From: Methanobrevibacter sp.
GTDB lineage: Archaea; Methanobacteriota; Methanobacteria; Methanobacteriales; Methanobacteriaceae
Reading direction: 5' to 3'
Assembly (NCBI GenBank): GCA_016838945.1
Contig: JADLKP010000003.1
Location: forward strand, 1-40,379
DNA length: 40,379 bases
Position numbers and translations under genes: made by a program. The notes under the pieces are model-generated. The model was not told where the DNA came from, did not search any database, and saw only the letters and a program-made list of their open reading frames with translations. Each line of letters starts with the position of its first letter. The first letter of the stretch is position 1. Below are positions 5,505 through 40,288 of the stretch, in pieces.

Positions 5505-6185
5505 TCAAACAAGATTCATAGAATAATAGAACGAAGGCAATGTCAACTCATAATATCCTTCTTCATAATTCAAGTTCAAGTCATCCGGATTAGAGATGGT
5601 TGCACCACATTCGCCACATCTGTAGACTCCGCCGGATTCATATATTGCTTCACTTCCACAATATGGACAGGTTTCAGCTCCGTCTCCATCACTTGAACTG
5701 CCGCTTCTTAAAGCAAATGGATTTGAATTTGATGAAGAAGATGAAGAAGATGAAGATTTTTTAGCCCTTTCTTGAGCTTCCCTTTGAGCCTTTTTCTCCT
5801 TATTTTTCAAATCATTGATGAATCCTTTTACTTTTATAACATAATGGTCATATTCTCCACCTATGAGCAGCCCATTATCGTTTTTATCACAATATACAAA
5901 CATTTCATAGAGATCATTTTCACTGATGCTGTATTTTGAAGTATGATCATAGGATTTAACTTCATCAAAGCTTAATCCCCCATCGCCGTTTAGATCCAAT
6001 TGGGTGAAATCAGCATATTTTGTATTGGTATCTTCTGTATAGGAATCATACGGAATTCCTAAAACCAGATTGCCTATAAGACTGATTATAAATAGAACTA
6101 TCCAAACTGCACAGCATCCAACTATGATTCTGCTGATAATGTTCATTTCATTGAACCTATTAATCTTATCCTCTAAACCTGACAT
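5505..6185 (-). CDS. Membrane protein with EF-hands and C-terminal zinc ribbon
   Basis: The 226-residue protein has one strong membrane segment (about 17-42). Two EF-hand-like calcium loops follow (64-75, DLNGDGGLSFDE; 100-111, DKNDNGLLIGGE), then a Lys/Glu-rich helix, a nine-serine run (144-152) and a zinc ribbon formed by CPYC (173-176) and CGEC (190-193). It ends in a short conserved tail containing NPDDL. It is a paralogue of the gene just upstream on the same strand, sharing the TM/EF-hand/Ser-linker/zinc-ribbon order. The ATG at 6185 follows GGGGAT at 6189-6194; a TTG 18 bases further upstream lacks a binding site. Function is unknown; calcium-responsive regulation at the membrane is an inference. 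Confidence 0.75.
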   Translation of the reverse strand: MSGLEDKINRFNEMNIISRIIVGCCAVWIVLFIISLIGNLVLGIPYDSYTEDTNTKYADFTQLDLNGDGGLSFDEVKSYDHTSKYSISENDLYEMFVYCDKNDNGLLIGGEYDHYVIKVKGFINDLKNKEKKAQREAQERAKKSSSSSSSSSNSNPFALRSGSSSDGDGAETCPYCGSEAIYESGGVYRCGECGATISNPDDLNLNYEEGYYELTLPSFYYSMNLV

Positions 6186-6228
6186 AAAATCCCCTTTTCT
6201 CAAGTAATTATTATTTTATGTAAACTTA

Positions 6229-7068
6229 TTAATTAATAGTTATGGTAACTGGAGCTGTCAACTCCATATATCCTTCCCCATATCCCAACTCCAGATCATC
6301 CGGATTGTAGATATTGGAACCGCATGCAGCGCATCTATAATGGCCTCCGGTTTCATAGACAGATTCGCTTCCGCAGTATGGGCAGGTCAAAACATAGCCT
6401 TCGCCACTATCATATTCTTGATCATCTAGACTGTTGGTGGATTTGGAGTTTCCTGAACTGTAATCATGGCCTCCGCTTGATGAGGATGAACTGGAATATT
6501 TGAATTTGTCACTGCCTGAACTGGAAGAACTGGAATCAATGTAATATTTCCTATAAAATTTTAAATCATCATAAAACAGTTCATACTCATGGCCCTTCAG
6601 ATAGCCATTATGATTCGTATCCGCCTCATTGAAATATTTGGTCACGTTTGAATCAGGTATGTTTGGATTTACTTGCAAAGCCTCATCAAGGGATAATCTC
6701 CCATTCCCATCCACATCAAAATATTCATAGGTATGGCCATAGCTTATAGGAAAGCTTTCACCAGCATCATGATAAACAACTGCAACCACAATAAAACCAA
6801 TGAAAAGAATTAAAGGCACATAGCAGCACCACATCTTCATACTGCCATTCCTTTTTGAATCAGGATTGGCATTTGTGCCATTAGAATTAGAACCGAGCGA
6901 TGCAGAAGCGTCAACACTTGAAGTGCCTATGAAACCAAACGATGCAGAAGCGTCAGCACTTGAAGCACCTATGGAATCATTCAAACTTGAATCCAATTTG
7001 AATCCACATTCAGCACAATAAATGGCCTTGTCAATATTTTCCTTTCCACATTTTGCACATTTTTTCAT
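6229..7068 (-). CDS. Zinc-ribbon/EF-hand membrane protein
   Basis: The 279-residue protein begins with a zinc ribbon (Cys4, 7, 18, 21; KKCAKCGKENIDKAIYCAEC). A duplicated 14-residue Ala/Ser-rich linker follows, then one membrane segment (about 80-99), two EF-hand loops (118-129, DVDGNGRLSLDE; 150-161, DTNHNGYLKGHE), Ser-rich linkers, and a second zinc ribbon (Cys229, 232, 246, 249) with an NPDDL tail. The shorter paralogue lies 43 bp downstream and is likely co-transcribed. GAGGGGGG a few bases before the ATG at 7068 gives a strong ribosome binding site. EF-hands imply calcium binding and zinc ribbons imply nucleic-acid or protein contacts; which side of the membrane each faces is uncertain. 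Confidence 0.75.
   Translation of the reverse strand: MKKCAKCGKENIDKAIYCAECGFKLDSSLNDSIGASSADASASFGFIGTSSVDASASLGSNSNGTNANPDSKRNGSMKMWCCYVPLILFIGFIVVAVVYHDAGESFPISYGHTYEYFDVDGNGRLSLDEALQVNPNIPDSNVTKYFNEADTNHNGYLKGHEYELFYDDLKFYRKYYIDSSSSSSGSDKFKYSSSSSSSGGHDYSSGNSKSTNSLDDQEYDSGEGYVLTCPYCGSESVYETGGHYRCAACGSNIYNPDDLELGYGEGYMELTAPVTITIN
6890..6973. repeat. In-gene 42-bp duplication (14-residue linker)
   Basis: Two 42-bp copies within the zinc-ribbon/EF-hand gene share GATGCAGAAGCGTCA (starting at 6899 and 6941). They encode a repeated Ser/Ala/Asp linker between the N-terminal zinc ribbon and the membrane segment. The duplication preserves the frame. Confidence 0.8.
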
Positions 7069-7130
7069 ATTACCCCCCTCAATATAAAAATCAGCTATTT
7101 ATAAAAAAACTTAAAAAAATAGAATAGTCA

Positions 7131-7649: not shown

Positions 7650-9368
7650 TTAAAGTGAAGTTAACTGAACGAATGCATCCTTGTCATTGGAAACATAGTT
7701 TCTGATGGATGTGCTGTTTCTATCCTCAAATACTATCCGCCCATCTTTTTCTCCATAAGTGAAATCAATACTTCCCTTCTCTACATCATCATAATCGAAA
7801 GTGCAAATCACATTTCCATCATATAAGATTGAATAGCTTGAGTTGTATTTGAAGTTTCCAACTGAAGACAAAATGGATTCGTTATCCAAAGTCAAGTTGA
7901 AGAAAGTGGCATTTTTGGATCTAGGACTAATGCTGAATTCCACAAATCCTTCCAATTCGTCACTTAGATTATTGAATTGAATATTGTGCTTGACTACTGA
8001 TCTTTGGAATATTTCAGCAATACGGCTGTTTGGTATGACTTCACGTTCATCCAAACCTAAACTTTGTCTAGCTTTTGACGGCAACCTGAAGGTATCTGCA
8101 GAATCCCCTTCTCTTGTGGAATTTACATAATACTGCCTGCCATCAATGATCATCGTATCATTCTCAGACATTTCCAATGTGCTTAATGCATCCTGAGGAA
8201 TCCTTAATATGTCTGTCTCATTTTCAATAGCACTGTCAATGGTATATGGGCCTCTAACTGAAATGGTCTGCTGATTAACGTCAGATGGAGCATAAACAAA
8301 GTTTCTGGAAGTGAGCTCAACTGAGATTCTTCCATCGTTGAAGGTAGCTGCGGATAAGAATGTTGAAAGCATTAGAATCAGAATCAATCCTGAAACGATC
8401 ACTGGGAAATGCATCTTTACAAAGGACTGCAAAGAGGTCCGTGTATTGCTTTTCCTTAGGATAGGTATTGATCTTTTAATGATTTTGACTATGTAGAGAA
8501 TTGTCAGCACAACTCCGACAAAGGCTACAAAGACAGATATCAGCAATGGTATGAATGGCACAAAGAATATCATGAAAAGACCTAAGATGATAAGGGACAA
8601 TCCCATAATGGCCATTCTGATATAGTTTCCTAATGTGTCCATCATTGTAACACGGCCGTAATCCACTGCCCTGTCGATGATGGTTCTGACCACTTCATTC
8701 GCCATTTTGTTTAAATCGGCAAGAGGAGACATGTCATGTGAAATATCTCCAATATCAACTTCCAAAATGCTTATGCCATGAACATCAGCATCAAGTACGA
8801 TACCAACATCCACACCATAATCCTTTTCAAATTTAATCTTATTCAATGCAGAACGTTTACCAGCAAATTGACCGCTTAAAGGCTGTTCATAATTAAGCTC
8901 AGGGAAGAAGAAACTTAAAAGAGGCTTTGCTGTAAGCTCTGTTACACGTCCGCTTTCCCTTGCAAATTTGGTTTTTGTTATATCAGTCTTATCCTCTAAA
9001 ATCGGCCTGATGATCTTATCTATTTTGCTTGATGTGAAATTTGAAATGTCTGCATCGATAAATGCTACAATGTCTCCATGGGAATTCTTGAATCCTGTCT
9101 TGATTGCTGAACCCTTACCTTCATTGGTAATATGGCTGATTACAGTAGCTCCTGCTCCTTCTGCCTCTTCTACAGTCCTATCACTGGACCCATCATCAAC
9201 TACTATCACCTCATCGACATAATCGAGCTTGCGCGCAACACTTACAACCTGAGCAACAGTAGCTTCCTCATTAAATGCAGGAATAACAATGGAAACTGAT
9301 TTTTTAGGATCTTTAGTTGATTTGATTGATGCAAGTAAAAATACTAAAATCACCATTAGCCAAGACAA
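7650..9368 (-). CDS. Membrane GT2 glycosyltransferase with long extracytoplasmic tail
   Basis: Residues about 24-240 form a GT-A family 2 glycosyltransferase: SIVIPAFNEE, VVDDGSSDRT near 57-66 and the metal-binding IDADISN near 104-110. The domain resembles dolichol-phosphate-sugar or glucosyl-3-phosphoglycerate synthases (PLSGQFAGKR near 163). A hydrophobic stretch at 3-14 precedes it, and three membrane segments follow (about 251-271, 273-297, 321-341). Residues 345-572 form an unrecognised domain with many N-x-S/T sequons, probably outside the membrane. Translation appears to start at a TTG: a strong TGAGGTG lies five bases upstream, whereas the first ATG is four codons further in and too far from it. 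The likely role is sugar transfer onto a lipid carrier; donor and acceptor are unknown. Confidence 0.82.
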   Translation of the reverse strand: MSWLMVILVFLLASIKSTKDPKKSVSIVIPAFNEEATVAQVVSVARKLDYVDEVIVVDDGSSDRTVEEAEGAGATVISHITNEGKGSAIKTGFKNSHGDIVAFIDADISNFTSSKIDKIIRPILEDKTDITKTKFARESGRVTELTAKPLLSFFFPELNYEQPLSGQFAGKRSALNKIKFEKDYGVDVGIVLDADVHGISILEVDIGDISHDMSPLADLNKMANEVVRTIIDRAVDYGRVTMMDTLGNYIRMAIMGLSLIILGLFMIFFVPFIPLLISVFVAFVGVVLTILYIVKIIKRSIPILRKSNTRTSLQSFVKMHFPVIVSGLILILMLSTFLSAATFNDGRISVELTSRNFVYAPSDVNQQTISVRGPYTIDSAIENETDILRIPQDALSTLEMSENDTMIIDGRQYYVNSTREGDSADTFRLPSKARQSLGLDEREVIPNSRIAEIFQRSVVKHNIQFNNLSDELEGFVEFSISPRSKNATFFNLTLDNESILSSVGNFKYNSSYSILYDGNVICTFDYDDVEKGSIDFTYGEKDGRIVFEDRNSTSIRNYVSNDKDAFVQLTSL

Positions 9369-34960: not shown

Positions 34961-37900
34961 TTATATAATTTTAAGTTTTAAAGCTGTTCTGTAGTCAACT
35001 TTTCCACTGACTTTTAAATTATGAGCTTTTTGGAACTTTTTGACAGCCCATTTAGTGTACTTGAAGAACCATCCGTCCACTAATAAGTGGTGGCCATTGT
35101 ACCTTATGTAGAAATGGTGCTTTTTCAAAGCCCTTTGAATCTTTTTGACGAAGAGCCTGTTTTTGCTTCCTTGGGAAACAGTATCAAACTTAACAGTTAT
35201 CTTAGCTTTTTTGCTTACTTTGTTGAAGGTTTTGTCTCCAGCATAGGAGATAACTGCATTTTTGGTTCCAACTTTGCTTAATTTAGTAAGTTTGAAAGTT
35301 GCTACACCTTTAGCGTTTGTTTTAGCACTGTATGTTTTGCCGTTGACCTTTAAAGTAACTTTTTTACCTTTCAATGCTTTTCCATTATTGTCTTTTAATG
35401 TTACAGCATAGTTTTTGGTTTTTTGGAAGTACTTAAAGGTTTTAGCTTTTGCAGTTAATTTTACATTGACTTTCTTTACAGTGAATTTTGTGCTTTTTGT
35501 GCTAGCATTGTATTTATCGGTTTGCTTGAAAGTTGCTTTTGCAGTGTAGGTTCCAGCAGCAAGGCCGGAAACTTGTGCACTTCCTTTACCGTTAACAACC
35601 TTTACCTCAATATGCTTACCGCCAATGTCTACACCAACATTTCCGCTGAATCCAGCATCAGTGCCAATGGAGACAGTGGCCTTTTCACCATAGCTAATGC
35701 TTTTGACCTTTATGCTTAATTTAGGATCTGCTGGCTCAGGAGCTTTTGCAACATTGAAGCTTACAGAGCTTTCATCTGCATTAAAGGTATCGTCACCGTT
35801 GAATGTGACGGTAGCAAGATAGTCGCCAGGAGCTATATCATCGCTAATGGTAACATTTCCAGAACCATCTACAATGGTTAATGGGTAAACAGCATTGGAA
35901 TTGTTCAATTTTACATTAGCTTCACCGTTTAAGGTTTCATTAGCATTGATGACAGCAACAGGCTTTTGGCCTTCAGTTACGTTATCAACTTTAATGCTAA
36001 AGTTAGGATTGATCTTGTTTACATTGAAGATTGTGGAAGTTTCGTAAGGAGTGAACTTCTTGTCACCGATGAATTTTACAGTAGCGCTGTATTCACCAGC
36101 AGCTAAACCTTCAAATGTGGTTTTTCCATATCCGTTCTTAACAAGCACCTTTTGAGGCATAGGGTTGCCTTTCACATAAACGCTGACATAACCGCTGAAT
36201 ACCTTATTTCCGGTAATTTCAACGGTAGCCTTATCGCCTACGTTAATATCTTCAACATTAATGCTTAAAGCAGGATCTGCCTTTTTGACATGGAAGATGC
36301 TTGAAGTTTCAACAGGATTGAACTTATCATCTCCAATGAACTTGACAGTTGCCTTATGCACACCAGGGTTTAAGTTTCCGAGTGATGCCTTAGCATGGCC
36401 GTTTTTGACAAAGACCTTTTGAGGCATAGGATTGCCTTTCACATAAACGCTGACATAACCGCTGAAAGACTTTTTGGCAGTGATATCTGCAACAGCCTTT
36501 TCGCCATAAGTGATGTCATCTACATCGATTCTTAAGAAAGAATCGTATCTGTTTACATTGAAGACAGTGGAAGTTTCACCTGGGGTGAACTTATCGTCAC
36601 CAGCATACTTTACAGTAGCAGAGTACTTTCCAGCAGCTAATCTGTTAAAGGTAGCTTTAGCATGCCCCTTTTTAACAAGCACTTTTTGAGGCATAGGGTT
36701 TCCTTTCACATAAACGCTGACATAACCGCTGAAAGACTTTTTGGCAGTGATATCTGCAACAGCCTTTTGACCAACATTGATGTCTTTAACATCAATGCTT
36801 AAAGCAGGATTAATTTTCTTAACATTGAAGACGGTTGAAGTCTCATATGGAACAAACTTATCGTCACCATTAAACTTGACAGTAGCAGAGTACTTTCCAG
36901 CAGCTAAGCCACTGAATGTGGTCTTTCCATACCCGTTCTTTACAAGAACCTTTTGAGGCATAGGGTTGCCTTTCACATAAACAGAAACGTAACCGCTGAA
37001 AGACTTTTTAGCGGTAATCTCTGCAGTTGCCTTTTCTCCTACATTAATGTCTTTAACATCAATGCTTAAAGCAGGATCATATCTGTTAACATTGAAGATA
37101 GTTGAAGTCTCATATGGAGCAAACTTATCGTCACCAGCATACTTGACAGTAGCCCTATGCTCACCAGGAGCTAAAACTCCTAATGACACTTTAGCATGCC
37201 CATTTTTAACAAGCACTTTTTGAGGCATAGGATTACCATTCAAGTATACGCTGACATAGCCAGTGAAAGATTTTTTAGCAGTGATGTCTGCAACAGCCTT
37301 TTGGCCCGCTGCAACATCTTTAATGTCAATGCTTAAAGCAGGATCAATTTTCTTAACATTGAATACAGTTGAAGTCTCACCTGGAGCAAACTTATCATCA
37401 CCATTAAACTTGACAGTAGCAGAGTACTTTCCAGCAGCTAATCTGTTAAAGGTAGTTTTACCATGCCCATTTTTAACAAGCACTTTTTGAGGCATAGGAT
37501 TACCATTCAAGTAAACTGAAACGTAACCGCTGAAATGCTTATCAGCACTGATTTCTGCAACAGCTTTTTCACCAACGTTAATATCATTAACATCAATTCT
37601 TAAAGCTGCATCTTCTCTACCAACATTAAAGGTAGTTGAAGCTTCACTTGGTGCAAATTTCTTATCACCAGCATACTTGACTGTAGCTCTGTGTTCACCA
37701 GGAGCTAAAACACCCAATGACACTTTAGCATAGCCGTTTTTGACTAAGACATTATAAGAAACAGGAGAGCCTTTCACATAAAGACTAACGTGGCCAGTGA
37801 AATGCTTATCAGCACTGATTTCTGCAACAGCATTTTGGCCTTTTTTGACATCTCCAACATGAATGTCTAAAGCAGGGTCTTCTCTGCCAACTTTAAAGGT

Positions 37901-38689
37901 GGTGGAAGCTTCGCCTGGAGCGAATTTCTTATCACCAGCATACTTTACAGCAGCACTATATTCACCAGAAGATAAGCCATTAAAAGTCACTTTTCCATAA
38001 CCGTTTTTAATAAGAACCTTTTGATATTGAGAAGAACCTTTCAAGTAAACAGTGACATAGCCACTTAATTCCTTATCACCAGTGATAATTCCAGTAGCTT
38101 TTTCACCGACATTGACATCAGGTACATCAATGCTTAAAGCAGGATCCATTCTGTTAACCTTAAAGCTTGTAGTTTTAATTTCCGCTTTGTAGCATAAACT
38201 GCCGTAATATACAGCTTTAACAGTGTATTTTCCTTCAGGCAAAGCTTTGCTTAAAGTTATTTTTCCATAACCGTTTTTAACAGATACCTTTTGTGGCAAG
38301 GTGTATCCCACTACATTGACGTAAACATTGCCGCTGAATGATTTTTTAGCATTGATTTCTACAGTTGGCTTTTCACCAATCTTGACATCATTAACTTTAA
38401 TGCTTAATCCAGGGCTTGCTGTATCCAATTTTTCATTTTCGTCATTACTTGGTCTTTGTGTGTCCTTATCTTTGATGTCACCACTTTGAGCGCCATCAGC
38501 ATTCTTAGTCTTTTGGTCCTTATTGCTATCAGTGACATTAACATCTTTCACTTTAATGTCACTGTCAGTGTCGTGGCTAATATATTTAGTATTGTTATGT
38601 TCTGGATTTAGATCAACAGCACTTAAAGGTGCTAAACAGTACATAGCAATAATAAATAGACAAGCAACTTTTACAGCTAATCCTTTCAT
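34961..38689 (-). CDS. Secreted Ig-repeat adhesin-like protein with peptidoglycan-binding-like domain
   Basis: The 1242-residue protein has a signal peptide (cleavage likely after Ala24 in LSAVDL) and a hydrophilic Asp/Lys linker to about 92. Eleven Ig-like repeats of about 89 residues follow (93-1075; core motif SxDVxDINVGEKA...SGYVSVYVKGNPMPQKVLVKNG...GDDKF.P.ETST.FNV), then a different Ig-like domain (1076-1177). Residues 1178-1242 form a peptidoglycan-binding-1-like domain (VKKIQRALKKHHFYI, VDGWFFKYTKWAVKKFQKAH). It has no membrane anchor and no pseudomurein-binding repeat, so the last domain is the likely attachment to the wall. Such adhesin-like proteins are typical of host-associated Methanobrevibacter. 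AAGGTGAT precedes the ATG; upstream inverted repeats may regulate it. Confidence 0.9.
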   Translation of the reverse strand: MKGLAVKVACLFIIAMYCLAPLSAVDLNPEHNNTKYISHDTDSDIKVKDVNVTDSNKDQKTKNADGAQSGDIKDKDTQRPSNDENEKLDTASPGLSIKVNDVKIGEKPTVEINAKKSFSGNVYVNVVGYTLPQKVSVKNGYGKITLSKALPEGKYTVKAVYYGSLCYKAEIKTTSFKVNRMDPALSIDVPDVNVGEKATGIITGDKELSGYVTVYLKGSSQYQKVLIKNGYGKVTFNGLSSGEYSAAVKYAGDKKFAPGEASTTFKVGREDPALDIHVGDVKKGQNAVAEISADKHFTGHVSLYVKGSPVSYNVLVKNGYAKVSLGVLAPGEHRATVKYAGDKKFAPSEASTTFNVGREDAALRIDVNDINVGEKAVAEISADKHFSGYVSVYLNGNPMPQKVLVKNGHGKTTFNRLAAGKYSATVKFNGDDKFAPGETSTVFNVKKIDPALSIDIKDVAAGQKAVADITAKKSFTGYVSVYLNGNPMPQKVLVKNGHAKVSLGVLAPGEHRATVKYAGDDKFAPYETSTIFNVNRYDPALSIDVKDINVGEKATAEITAKKSFSGYVSVYVKGNPMPQKVLVKNGYGKTTFSGLAAGKYSATVKFNGDDKFVPYETSTVFNVKKINPALSIDVKDINVGQKAVADITAKKSFSGYVSVYVKGNPMPQKVLVKKGHAKATFNRLAAGKYSATVKYAGDDKFTPGETSTVFNVNRYDSFLRIDVDDITYGEKAVADITAKKSFSGYVSVYVKGNPMPQKVFVKNGHAKASLGNLNPGVHKATVKFIGDDKFNPVETSSIFHVKKADPALSINVEDINVGDKATVEITGNKVFSGYVSVYVKGNPMPQKVLVKNGYGKTTFEGLAAGEYSATVKFIGDKKFTPYETSTIFNVNKINPNFSIKVDNVTEGQKPVAVINANETLNGEANVKLNNSNAVYPLTIVDGSGNVTISDDIAPGDYLATVTFNGDDTFNADESSVSFNVAKAPEPADPKLSIKVKSISYGEKATVSIGTDAGFSGNVGVDIGGKHIEVKVVNGKGSAQVSGLAAGTYTAKATFKQTDKYNASTKSTKFTVKKVNVKLTAKAKTFKYFQKTKNYAVTLKDNNGKALKGKKVTLKVNGKTYSAKTNAKGVATFKLTKLSKVGTKNAVISYAGDKTFNKVSKKAKITVKFDTVSQGSKNRLFVKKIQRALKKHHFYIRYNGHHLLVDGWFFKYTKWAVKKFQKAHNLKVSGKVDYRTALKLKII
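35465..38413. repeat. Ig-repeat DNA array, 267-bp period
   Basis: The eleven Ig repeats of the adhesin are also tandem repeats at DNA level. Units two to nine (about 36008-38143) are exactly 267 bp each. Several share long identical stretches, for example the segment coding GNPMPQKVLVKNG, which indicates recent duplication or gene conversion. Outer units are more diverged. Confidence 0.85.
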
Positions 38690-39194: not shown

Positions 39195-40184
39195 TCAAAT
39201 ATCCCTTACTTTAAAAAAGTGGGTTTTTAAAACTTTCTTAAAGGTTTTGTCGCTTGAAAAATAAAATAAGTTTGGACAATTTTCAGGAGTTAAATCCTTG
39301 ACTAGTGTTTTATTGCCCATACTGTCAGCTATTGACAGTCCCGCAAAAATAGAATCGTTTAAGTTGACTCTTGATAAATCATCGTCTGTGTTTAATGTGC
39401 TAACATCTAAAGATAAGCCATGATTTCCCTTATTCATATGACCAACACTTGAATCAGATTCTATTAAATCTATTGTTCTTTTCACATCAAAGACTGAATT
39501 ATTCTTCAAATGTTTAAATATGTCTTCAGATTCAATCAAAGAGATTCTAACATAATAGTTATTGAAAAGTATTTTTTGATAGTCCTTTACTTTATCAAAA
39601 GGCAATTTGTTGAAGGAATCGTCTAAAGCATAAGATCCATCATATAAATCATATGATTGAAGTTTAGAGTAATTAGCAGTGTCATCATTATTTCCATCAC
39701 TGCAATCCATTGAATCTGTATTTTTATAAACATTAGAATTATTATCGATTAATGCACTATTGTTGTCGATGATTCCAGAGATAGGTACATCACTAGGGAT
39801 AGCATCATCTGCAGGAACACTATCATCACTAGAAATATCTTCATTAATAGGCCTATCACTCTCAGACCCGTTATCATCACTAGGAACATCGCTAGGAACG
39901 ACATCATCAATAGGTAAATTATTAGCATCATCAGATCCGTTATCATTAAATGGCAATTCTCCATTATCAGACCCATTGTTGTCGCTAGGTATGTCGCTAG
40001 GAATAACATCATCAACAGCGCTGCCACCATCTATAGGAATATCGCTAGGAATAGAATCATCTACAATGACACTATCATCCATAGAGATATTGCTGTCGTG
40101 ATTTAACTCTGCAGCACATGCAGGAGCTAAAAAAACAACGCAAATGAAAAATGTGGCAATCAATATTAAATTCATCCCTTTCAT
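39195..40184 (-). CDS. Secreted Asp/Ser-rich protein of unknown function
   Basis: The 329-residue protein has a signal peptide (NLILIATFFICVVFLAPACAA, cleavage near 25). An acidic low-complexity region of about 30-150 is built from variants of DDxIPSDIPSD and NGSD. A non-repetitive C-terminal domain follows (about 175-329; DKVKDYQKILFNNYYVRISLIES, CPNLFYFSSDKTFKKVLKTHFF). No wall-binding or membrane anchor is seen. The acidic repeats could bind divalent cations, but that is inference. GTGAT six bases before the ATG at 40184 supports this start; that GTG itself would be an alternative start three codons upstream. Confidence 0.72.
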   Translation of the reverse strand: MKGMNLILIATFFICVVFLAPACAAELNHDSNISMDDSVIVDDSIPSDIPIDGGSAVDDVIPSDIPSDNNGSDNGELPFNDNGSDDANNLPIDDVVPSDVPSDDNGSESDRPINEDISSDDSVPADDAIPSDVPISGIIDNNSALIDNNSNVYKNTDSMDCSDGNNDDTANYSKLQSYDLYDGSYALDDSFNKLPFDKVKDYQKILFNNYYVRISLIESEDIFKHLKNNSVFDVKRTIDLIESDSSVGHMNKGNHGLSLDVSTLNTDDDLSRVNLNDSIFAGLSIADSMGNKTLVKDLTPENCPNLFYFSSDKTFKKVLKTHFFKVRDI

Positions 40185-40288
40185 AAAAATCACAATTTAT
40201 ATGTTTATTATTAGTTTAATAATGGATATATAAATAGATTTCCGAAAGCAAGTGATTGCTTGCATTTTAAATTAGCTAAAAATCAATA

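Follow-up and report, generated by a model that had tools for sequence, protein, structure and literature searches.

Tandem genes of Methanobrevibacter encode predicted membrane proteins that join an EF-hand pair to zinc ribbons

Introduction

Calmodulin-like EF-hand pairs (EF-hand_7, PF13499) consist of two helix-loop-helix units whose canonical loops follow the pattern D-x-[DN]-x-[DN]-G...E. In general EF-hand chemistry, Asn at loop positions 3 and 5 points to modest Ca2+ affinity. Zinc ribbons are likewise found in proteins with a single transmembrane (TM) segment (Zn_Ribbon_1, PF13240; DZR, PF12773). In such proteins, for example staphylococcal TcaA (NF053815), an N-terminal CxxC...CxxC ribbon is followed by a linker, one TM segment, and a domain beyond it. 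STIM proteins place extracytoplasmic EF-hands beside one TM segment and add a SAM domain and a cytoplasmic coiled coil. Other fusions are given in a review of prokaryotic EF-hand architectures (PMC7016017), none of which, in the accessible part of that source, has the domain order described here. A literature search also found no paper describing the architecture ribbon, TM segment, EF-hand pair, ribbon.

Methanobrevibacter is a genus known for methane production in the rumen and gut. The stretch of DNA analyzed here (termed the “window”) is 40,379 nucleotides long and comprises positions 1 to 40,379 of contig JADLKP010000003.1 from the Methanobrevibacter sp. assembly GCA_016838945.1. Two adjacent open reading frames (ORFs) on its minus strand, gene A and gene B, occupy positions 5505-7068. 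Both encode EF-hand pairs of the calmodulin-like kind, with two helix-loop-helix units and canonical loops, and A begins as the ribbon/TM proteins do.

The A/B gene pair

A first-pass annotation of the letters had described these genes as tandem paralogues with one membrane segment, two EF-hand loops, a Ser-rich linker, and a C-terminal ribbon. The two ORFs are indeed related, and this domain order is confirmed in both proteins (Table 1), with B having the order of A minus the N-terminal ribbon. The NPDDL ending is present in A and B, as claimed. The motif CPYCGSE...CGxCG, assigned to both, is exact in B (CGECG), but A reads CAACG. In B, the EF-hand pair is followed by a basic helix.

Table 1. 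Features of the A/B gene pair, in window coordinates.
Feature	Position	Strand	Description
Gene A	6229-7068	-	279 aa; zinc ribbon, Ser/Asn linker, TM, EF-hand pair, Ser linker, zinc ribbon
A N-terminal zinc ribbon	7006-7059	-	Cys 4/7/18/21; Pfam Zn_Ribbon_1
A transmembrane segment	6769-6831	-	residues ~80-100; hydropathy 2.65; helix 80-104 in AlphaFold model
A EF loop 1, DVDGNGRLSLDE	6682-6717	-	residues 118-129; Pfam, sequence, AlphaFold model
A EF loop 2, DTNHNGYLKGHE	6586-6621	-	residues 150-161; Pfam, sequence, AlphaFold model
A C-terminal zinc ribbon, CPYCGSE...CAACG	6319-6384	-	residues 229-250; Cys 229/232/246/249; then NPDDL
Gene B	5505-6185	-	226 aa; TM, EF-hand pair, long helix, Ser linker, zinc ribbon
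B transmembrane helix	6063-6140	-	residues ~16-41; sequence and AlphaFold model
B EF loop 1, DLNGDGGLSFDE	5961-5996	-	residues 64-75; Pfam, AlphaFold model, homologue alignment
B EF loop 2, DKNDNGLLIGGE	5853-5888	-	residues 100-111; Pfam, AlphaFold model, homologue alignment
B C-terminal zinc ribbon, CPYCGSE...CGECG	5604-5669	-	residues 173-194; Cys 173/176/190/193; then NPDDL
TATA-like, TTTATAAATA	7096-7105	-	before gene A; putative, read by eye
Shine-Dalgarno, strong, GAGGGGGGT	7072-7080	-	before gene A; putative, read by eye

Gene B probably starts at the ATG at 6185 (MSG...) rather than at the TTG at 6203 given in the ORF list. The ATG is preferred because an MSG/MSS start is conserved in orthologues and a Shine-Dalgarno-like AAAAGGGGAT precedes it; the frame from the TTG is most likely a mere mechanical extension. 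Given the TATA-like box and strong Shine-Dalgarno before A, and T-runs read by eye downstream of B, the pair probably forms a small operon of its own.

Close relatives keep the order gatA, a convergent coiled-coil gene, B, A, the riboflavin kinase gene ribK, a GT2 glycosyltransferase gene, and a permease gene, some of them with only one copy of the A/B pair. In the sister genus, the neighbors of the A/B relatives differ. The conserved neighborhood (gatA, ribK, glycosyltransferase, permease) offers no clue to function, and a functional link to riboflavin kinase or the other neighbors is unsupported because the arrangement, although kept within the genus, is not shared by the sister genus. The GT2-family glycosyltransferase beside the pair (window 7650-9368), conserved in the genus, has hydrophobic segments and a C-terminal extension. 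Elsewhere in the window, two secreted-looking proteins with apparent signal sequences (34961-38689 and 39195-40193) contain few Cys residues (3 and 4, respectively).

The EF-hand pair

The EF-hand_7 model matches A at E=6e-6 and B at E=6e-5. Scored alone, the proteins reach 26.9 and 23.8 bits against a curated cut-off of 30, A rising to 30.4 bits in the whole-frame genome search; EF-hand_1 in A lies over its own cut-off (25.7 vs 25.4 bits). EF-hand_7 also matches each of the 23 sequences in the first alignment, and the profile built from this alignment retrieves EF-hand proteins of solved structure at E 1.5e-13. The strict PROSITE pattern PS00018 matches none of the four loops in the window, though every chelating position is canonical and conserved.

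The ligand positions of the EF-hands are the best conserved feature of the family. Across 27 homologues, a set that takes in sister-genus members and members with an exchanged C-terminal domain, D1 and E12 are invariant in both loops, and only D or N occurs at positions 3 and 5. Gly6 is present in every loop 1 and in 24 of the 27 copies of loop 2. Loop 2 carries Asn at position 5 in all 27 and at position 3 in 25. By analogy with characterized EF-hands, these Asn residues would give a modest affinity, fitting millimolar external Ca2+.

AlphaFold predicts the EF-hand pair in both proteins (local pLDDT ~72-88), with short beta pairing between the loops; overall confidence is low owing to the disordered linkers. 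The top Foldseek matches are Ca2+-bound EF-hand domains with a probability of ~1. No E-value falls below 0.001, as is to be expected of an alignment that spans only ~60 residues of a mostly disordered model. Orthologue pairs have a dN/dS of ~0.17-0.32, a sign of purifying selection. Together, the ligand conservation, the AlphaFold EF-hands, and the dN/dS indicate that the architecture is selected rather than accidental. Chance EF motifs are ruled out by dN/dS and by ligands kept in every homologue. The earlier reading of canonical EF-hands therefore stands, and the loss of loops from orthologues, which it had named as its refutation, was not found.

EF-hand pairs look uncommon in the window's genome, where the EF-hand-pair model matches at four places only, two of them being A and B; among 14 control genomes, it matches in only 2. 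In the same genome, contig C93 encodes a 218-aa protein (L005/L006 in G000) with an N-terminal zinc ribbon, a TM segment, one EF loop (DKNGDGLLTGNE), and a C-terminal CPYC motif. Its general order is like that of A (N-terminal ribbon, one TM, EF loop); it differs from A and B in having one EF loop instead of two and in its C-terminal Cys motif. Other members of the genus also have EF-hand matches in frames of similar size, among them G012, a genome without A and B.

The zinc ribbons

The ribbons contain the CxxC-x(n)-CxxC knuckle pair. The N-terminal ribbon of A is narrowly above the Zn_Ribbon_1 cut-off (25.6 vs 25 bits), and no single Pfam ribbon model reaches its cut-off on the C-terminal ribbon of A or B. 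The four C-terminal Cys are kept in 25 of the 27 homologues. Within the genus, the C-terminal ribbon and its NPDDL/GY tail are conserved beyond the metal ligands, and the linkers are long, variable, and Ser/Asn-rich.

The N-terminal ribbon had been described as an extra element of one protein. It is present in A and absent from B, as stated, but probably was not added. The ribbon, together with a B-like core, is found in single-copy forms (G013, G018), in sister-genus forms, and in G003's downstream copy. This distribution disfavors a gain in A and suggests that the ancestor probably had the order ribbon, TM segment, EF-hand pair, ribbon, with most B copies having since lost the N-terminal ribbon. 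Many genomes of the family also encode ~86-aa proteins, such as L004 (G000 contig C91:1444-1689), with an N-terminal ribbon, a linker, and a TM segment only; these can be aligned to the first part of A.

At the other end, NPDDL is ruled out as a special signature of the A/B pair because stand-alone ribbon proteins of ~41 residues (CPRCGSE...CHECG...NPDDLEL), encoded in 13 genomes of the window's genus, carry it too. Three homologues (L022, L023, and L024, from G010, G008, and G009, respectively) have a WEEEEIVDYDEYGYPVYVCIYYTSGDKYFEPGVYTA-type domain in place of the C-terminal zinc ribbon, and no Pfam match was seen for this domain in the G010 protein. Such an exchangeable domain is as expected of an interaction tip.

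Distribution and history

At E 1e-15, a search of 152 genomes of the phylum found relatives of A and/or B in 17 of the 19 belonging to the window's genus, in 5 belonging to the sister genus, and in no others. The named relatives are Methanobrevibacter metagenome-assembled genomes (MAGs), and the family is apparently confined to Methanobrevibacter. A Ruminococcus match covers a 25-residue ribbon only. Relatives were not found in plasmids, phages, or viral contigs, on which basis a mobile or viral origin is rejected. Two nearly complete genomes of the window's genus (G001 and G012) lack the family, so it is dispensable.

Two trees, one built from the TM-EF core and the other from the C-terminal ribbon, place A-like and B-like copies mostly apart. 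They disagree over gene A of G006 (L016/L036), whose core groups with B-like copies and whose C-terminal ribbon groups with A. This suggests recombination between the tandem copies, though the branch is long.

Membrane topology and possible function

The 15 residues on either side of the TM segment differ in charge. Lys and Arg average 3.0 on the N-side and 0.66 on the C-side, whereas Asp and Glu average 1.9 and 4.1, and K+R is higher on the N-side in 29 of 32 proteins. This bias predicts an N-in/C-out orientation, which would place the EF-hand pair and the C-terminal ribbon outside the membrane and the N-terminal ribbon of A in the cytoplasm. For B alone, the net charge of the N-side is ~0 and the positive-inside signal is weaker. 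With the EF-hand pair and C-terminal ribbon predicted to lie outside, an adaptor or structural function is favored over the sensing of Ca2+ in the cytosol. The calcium-responsive membrane regulator or assembly factor that the first-pass annotation thought conceivable is neither backed nor dismissed by these results.

From the predicted fold and topology, we tentatively propose that A and B may be calcium-loaded envelope adaptors, the reading we prefer and consider quite possible; metal binding, the adaptor role, and A-B pairing are what we infer in it. Both would be single-pass envelope proteins expressed from a small operon, with the N-terminus in the cytoplasm and the remainder outside. The membrane-proximal EF-hand pair would bind Ca2+ from the surroundings and fold into a rigid head, from which a Ser-rich stalk would carry the C-terminal zinc ribbon into the cell-wall zone as a protein-binding tip. 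The cytoplasmic ribbon of A, and of the ancestral form, may link the assembly to a partner inside. B, having lost that ribbon, may partner with A or serve as an exclusively external copy. In favor of the adaptor reading are the conserved EF ligands, the EF-hand pair seen by AlphaFold and Foldseek, the charge bias, the Asn residues of loop 2, the exchangeable C-terminal domain, and the conserved A-B order. Against it stand the weaker positive-inside signal of B, a neighborhood that gives no functional hint, and the dispensability of the family. A further point against is the external ribbon: as a rule, zinc ribbons lie in the cytoplasm, and an external one would be unusual, although a strict anaerobe could tolerate it.

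The usual location of zinc ribbons is equally an argument for the reverse topology, with the EF-hand pair and C-terminal ribbon in the cytoplasm and the proteins, bound to the membrane and using Ca2+ or Mg2+ as cofactor, acting as assembly factors, chaperones, or RNA/protein adaptors. The occurrence of the C-terminal ribbon subfamily as ~41-aa proteins without a TM segment and the basic helix of B would fit this arrangement. It is nevertheless unlikely, as the charges flanking the TM segment favor N-in/C-out in all but three of the homologues compared and the N-terminal ribbon of A would then lie outside. If the orientation is as predicted, the external EF-hand pair could instead belong to a transmembrane Ca2+ sensor, changing shape with outside Ca2+ and passing the signal along the single helix to A's cytoplasmic ribbon. 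The short spacer between the EF-hand pair and the TM segment is consistent with such a sensor, as is the cytoplasmic domain of A and of the presumed ancestral forms, which is able to receive a signal; the loop composition suggests a millimolar range. Against a sensor, the cytoplasmic part of B amounts to only ~15 residues, the neighborhood links the pair to no output domain, kinase, or DNA-binding partner, and external Ca2+ in the gut may vary too little. A sensor of this kind, which would work much as STIM-type or zinc-ribbon/TM envelope regulators do, has a low probability.

An archaeal, lineage-specific transmembrane Ca2+-sensing pair, whose external EF head would control both the cytoplasmic ribbon of A and the external ribbon tips of A and B, appears decidedly unlikely. 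If true, methanogens of the gut would be able to sense or use the Ca2+ of their environment at the cell wall. Much the same doubt attaches to a metal-stabilized stalk, in which Ca2+ and Zn2+ would just hold the folds of passive envelope spacers or glycosylated anchors. The length and variability of the Ser/Asn-rich linkers and a conservation that is strictest at the metal ligands agree with a passive stalk, but the conservation of the C-terminal ribbon and NPDDL/GY tail beyond those ligands suggests a specific partner.

Comparison with known systems

The first-pass annotation knew no named family with this domain order, and Pfam and NCBIfam scans bear this out: their models match separate parts only, and none covers the whole order of ribbon, TM segment, EF-hand pair, and ribbon. 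Calmodulin-like EF-hand pairs differ from A and B, which have one pair only, anchored in the membrane and joined to zinc ribbons, with Asn at positions 3 and 5 of loop 2. In TcaA-type ribbon/TM proteins, the N-terminal arrangement resembles that of A, but in A and B EF-hands follow the TM segment, and B is without the N-terminal ribbon. Residues 1-34 of A weakly match the TcaA model (E 0.0065; 15.3 bits vs a cut-off of 550). Membership of that family is ruled out, as the match covers the ribbon only and lies far below the cut-off. The stand-alone ~41-aa Methanobrevibacter proteins share the ribbon and NPDDL tail and are ~53-62% identical to the C-terminal domains of both proteins, but have neither a TM segment nor EF-hands. 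STIM proteins are a candidate parallel in way of working only, and no sequence relationship is claimed; their SAM domain and cytoplasmic coiled coil are absent from A and B.

As a conserved, unnamed EF-hand membrane family, A and B are a concrete target for asking whether Methanobrevibacter use calcium at the envelope. Compared with the known systems, their parts are ordinary known folds, and their order is that of an unnamed, lineage-specific EF-hand/zinc-ribbon membrane family.
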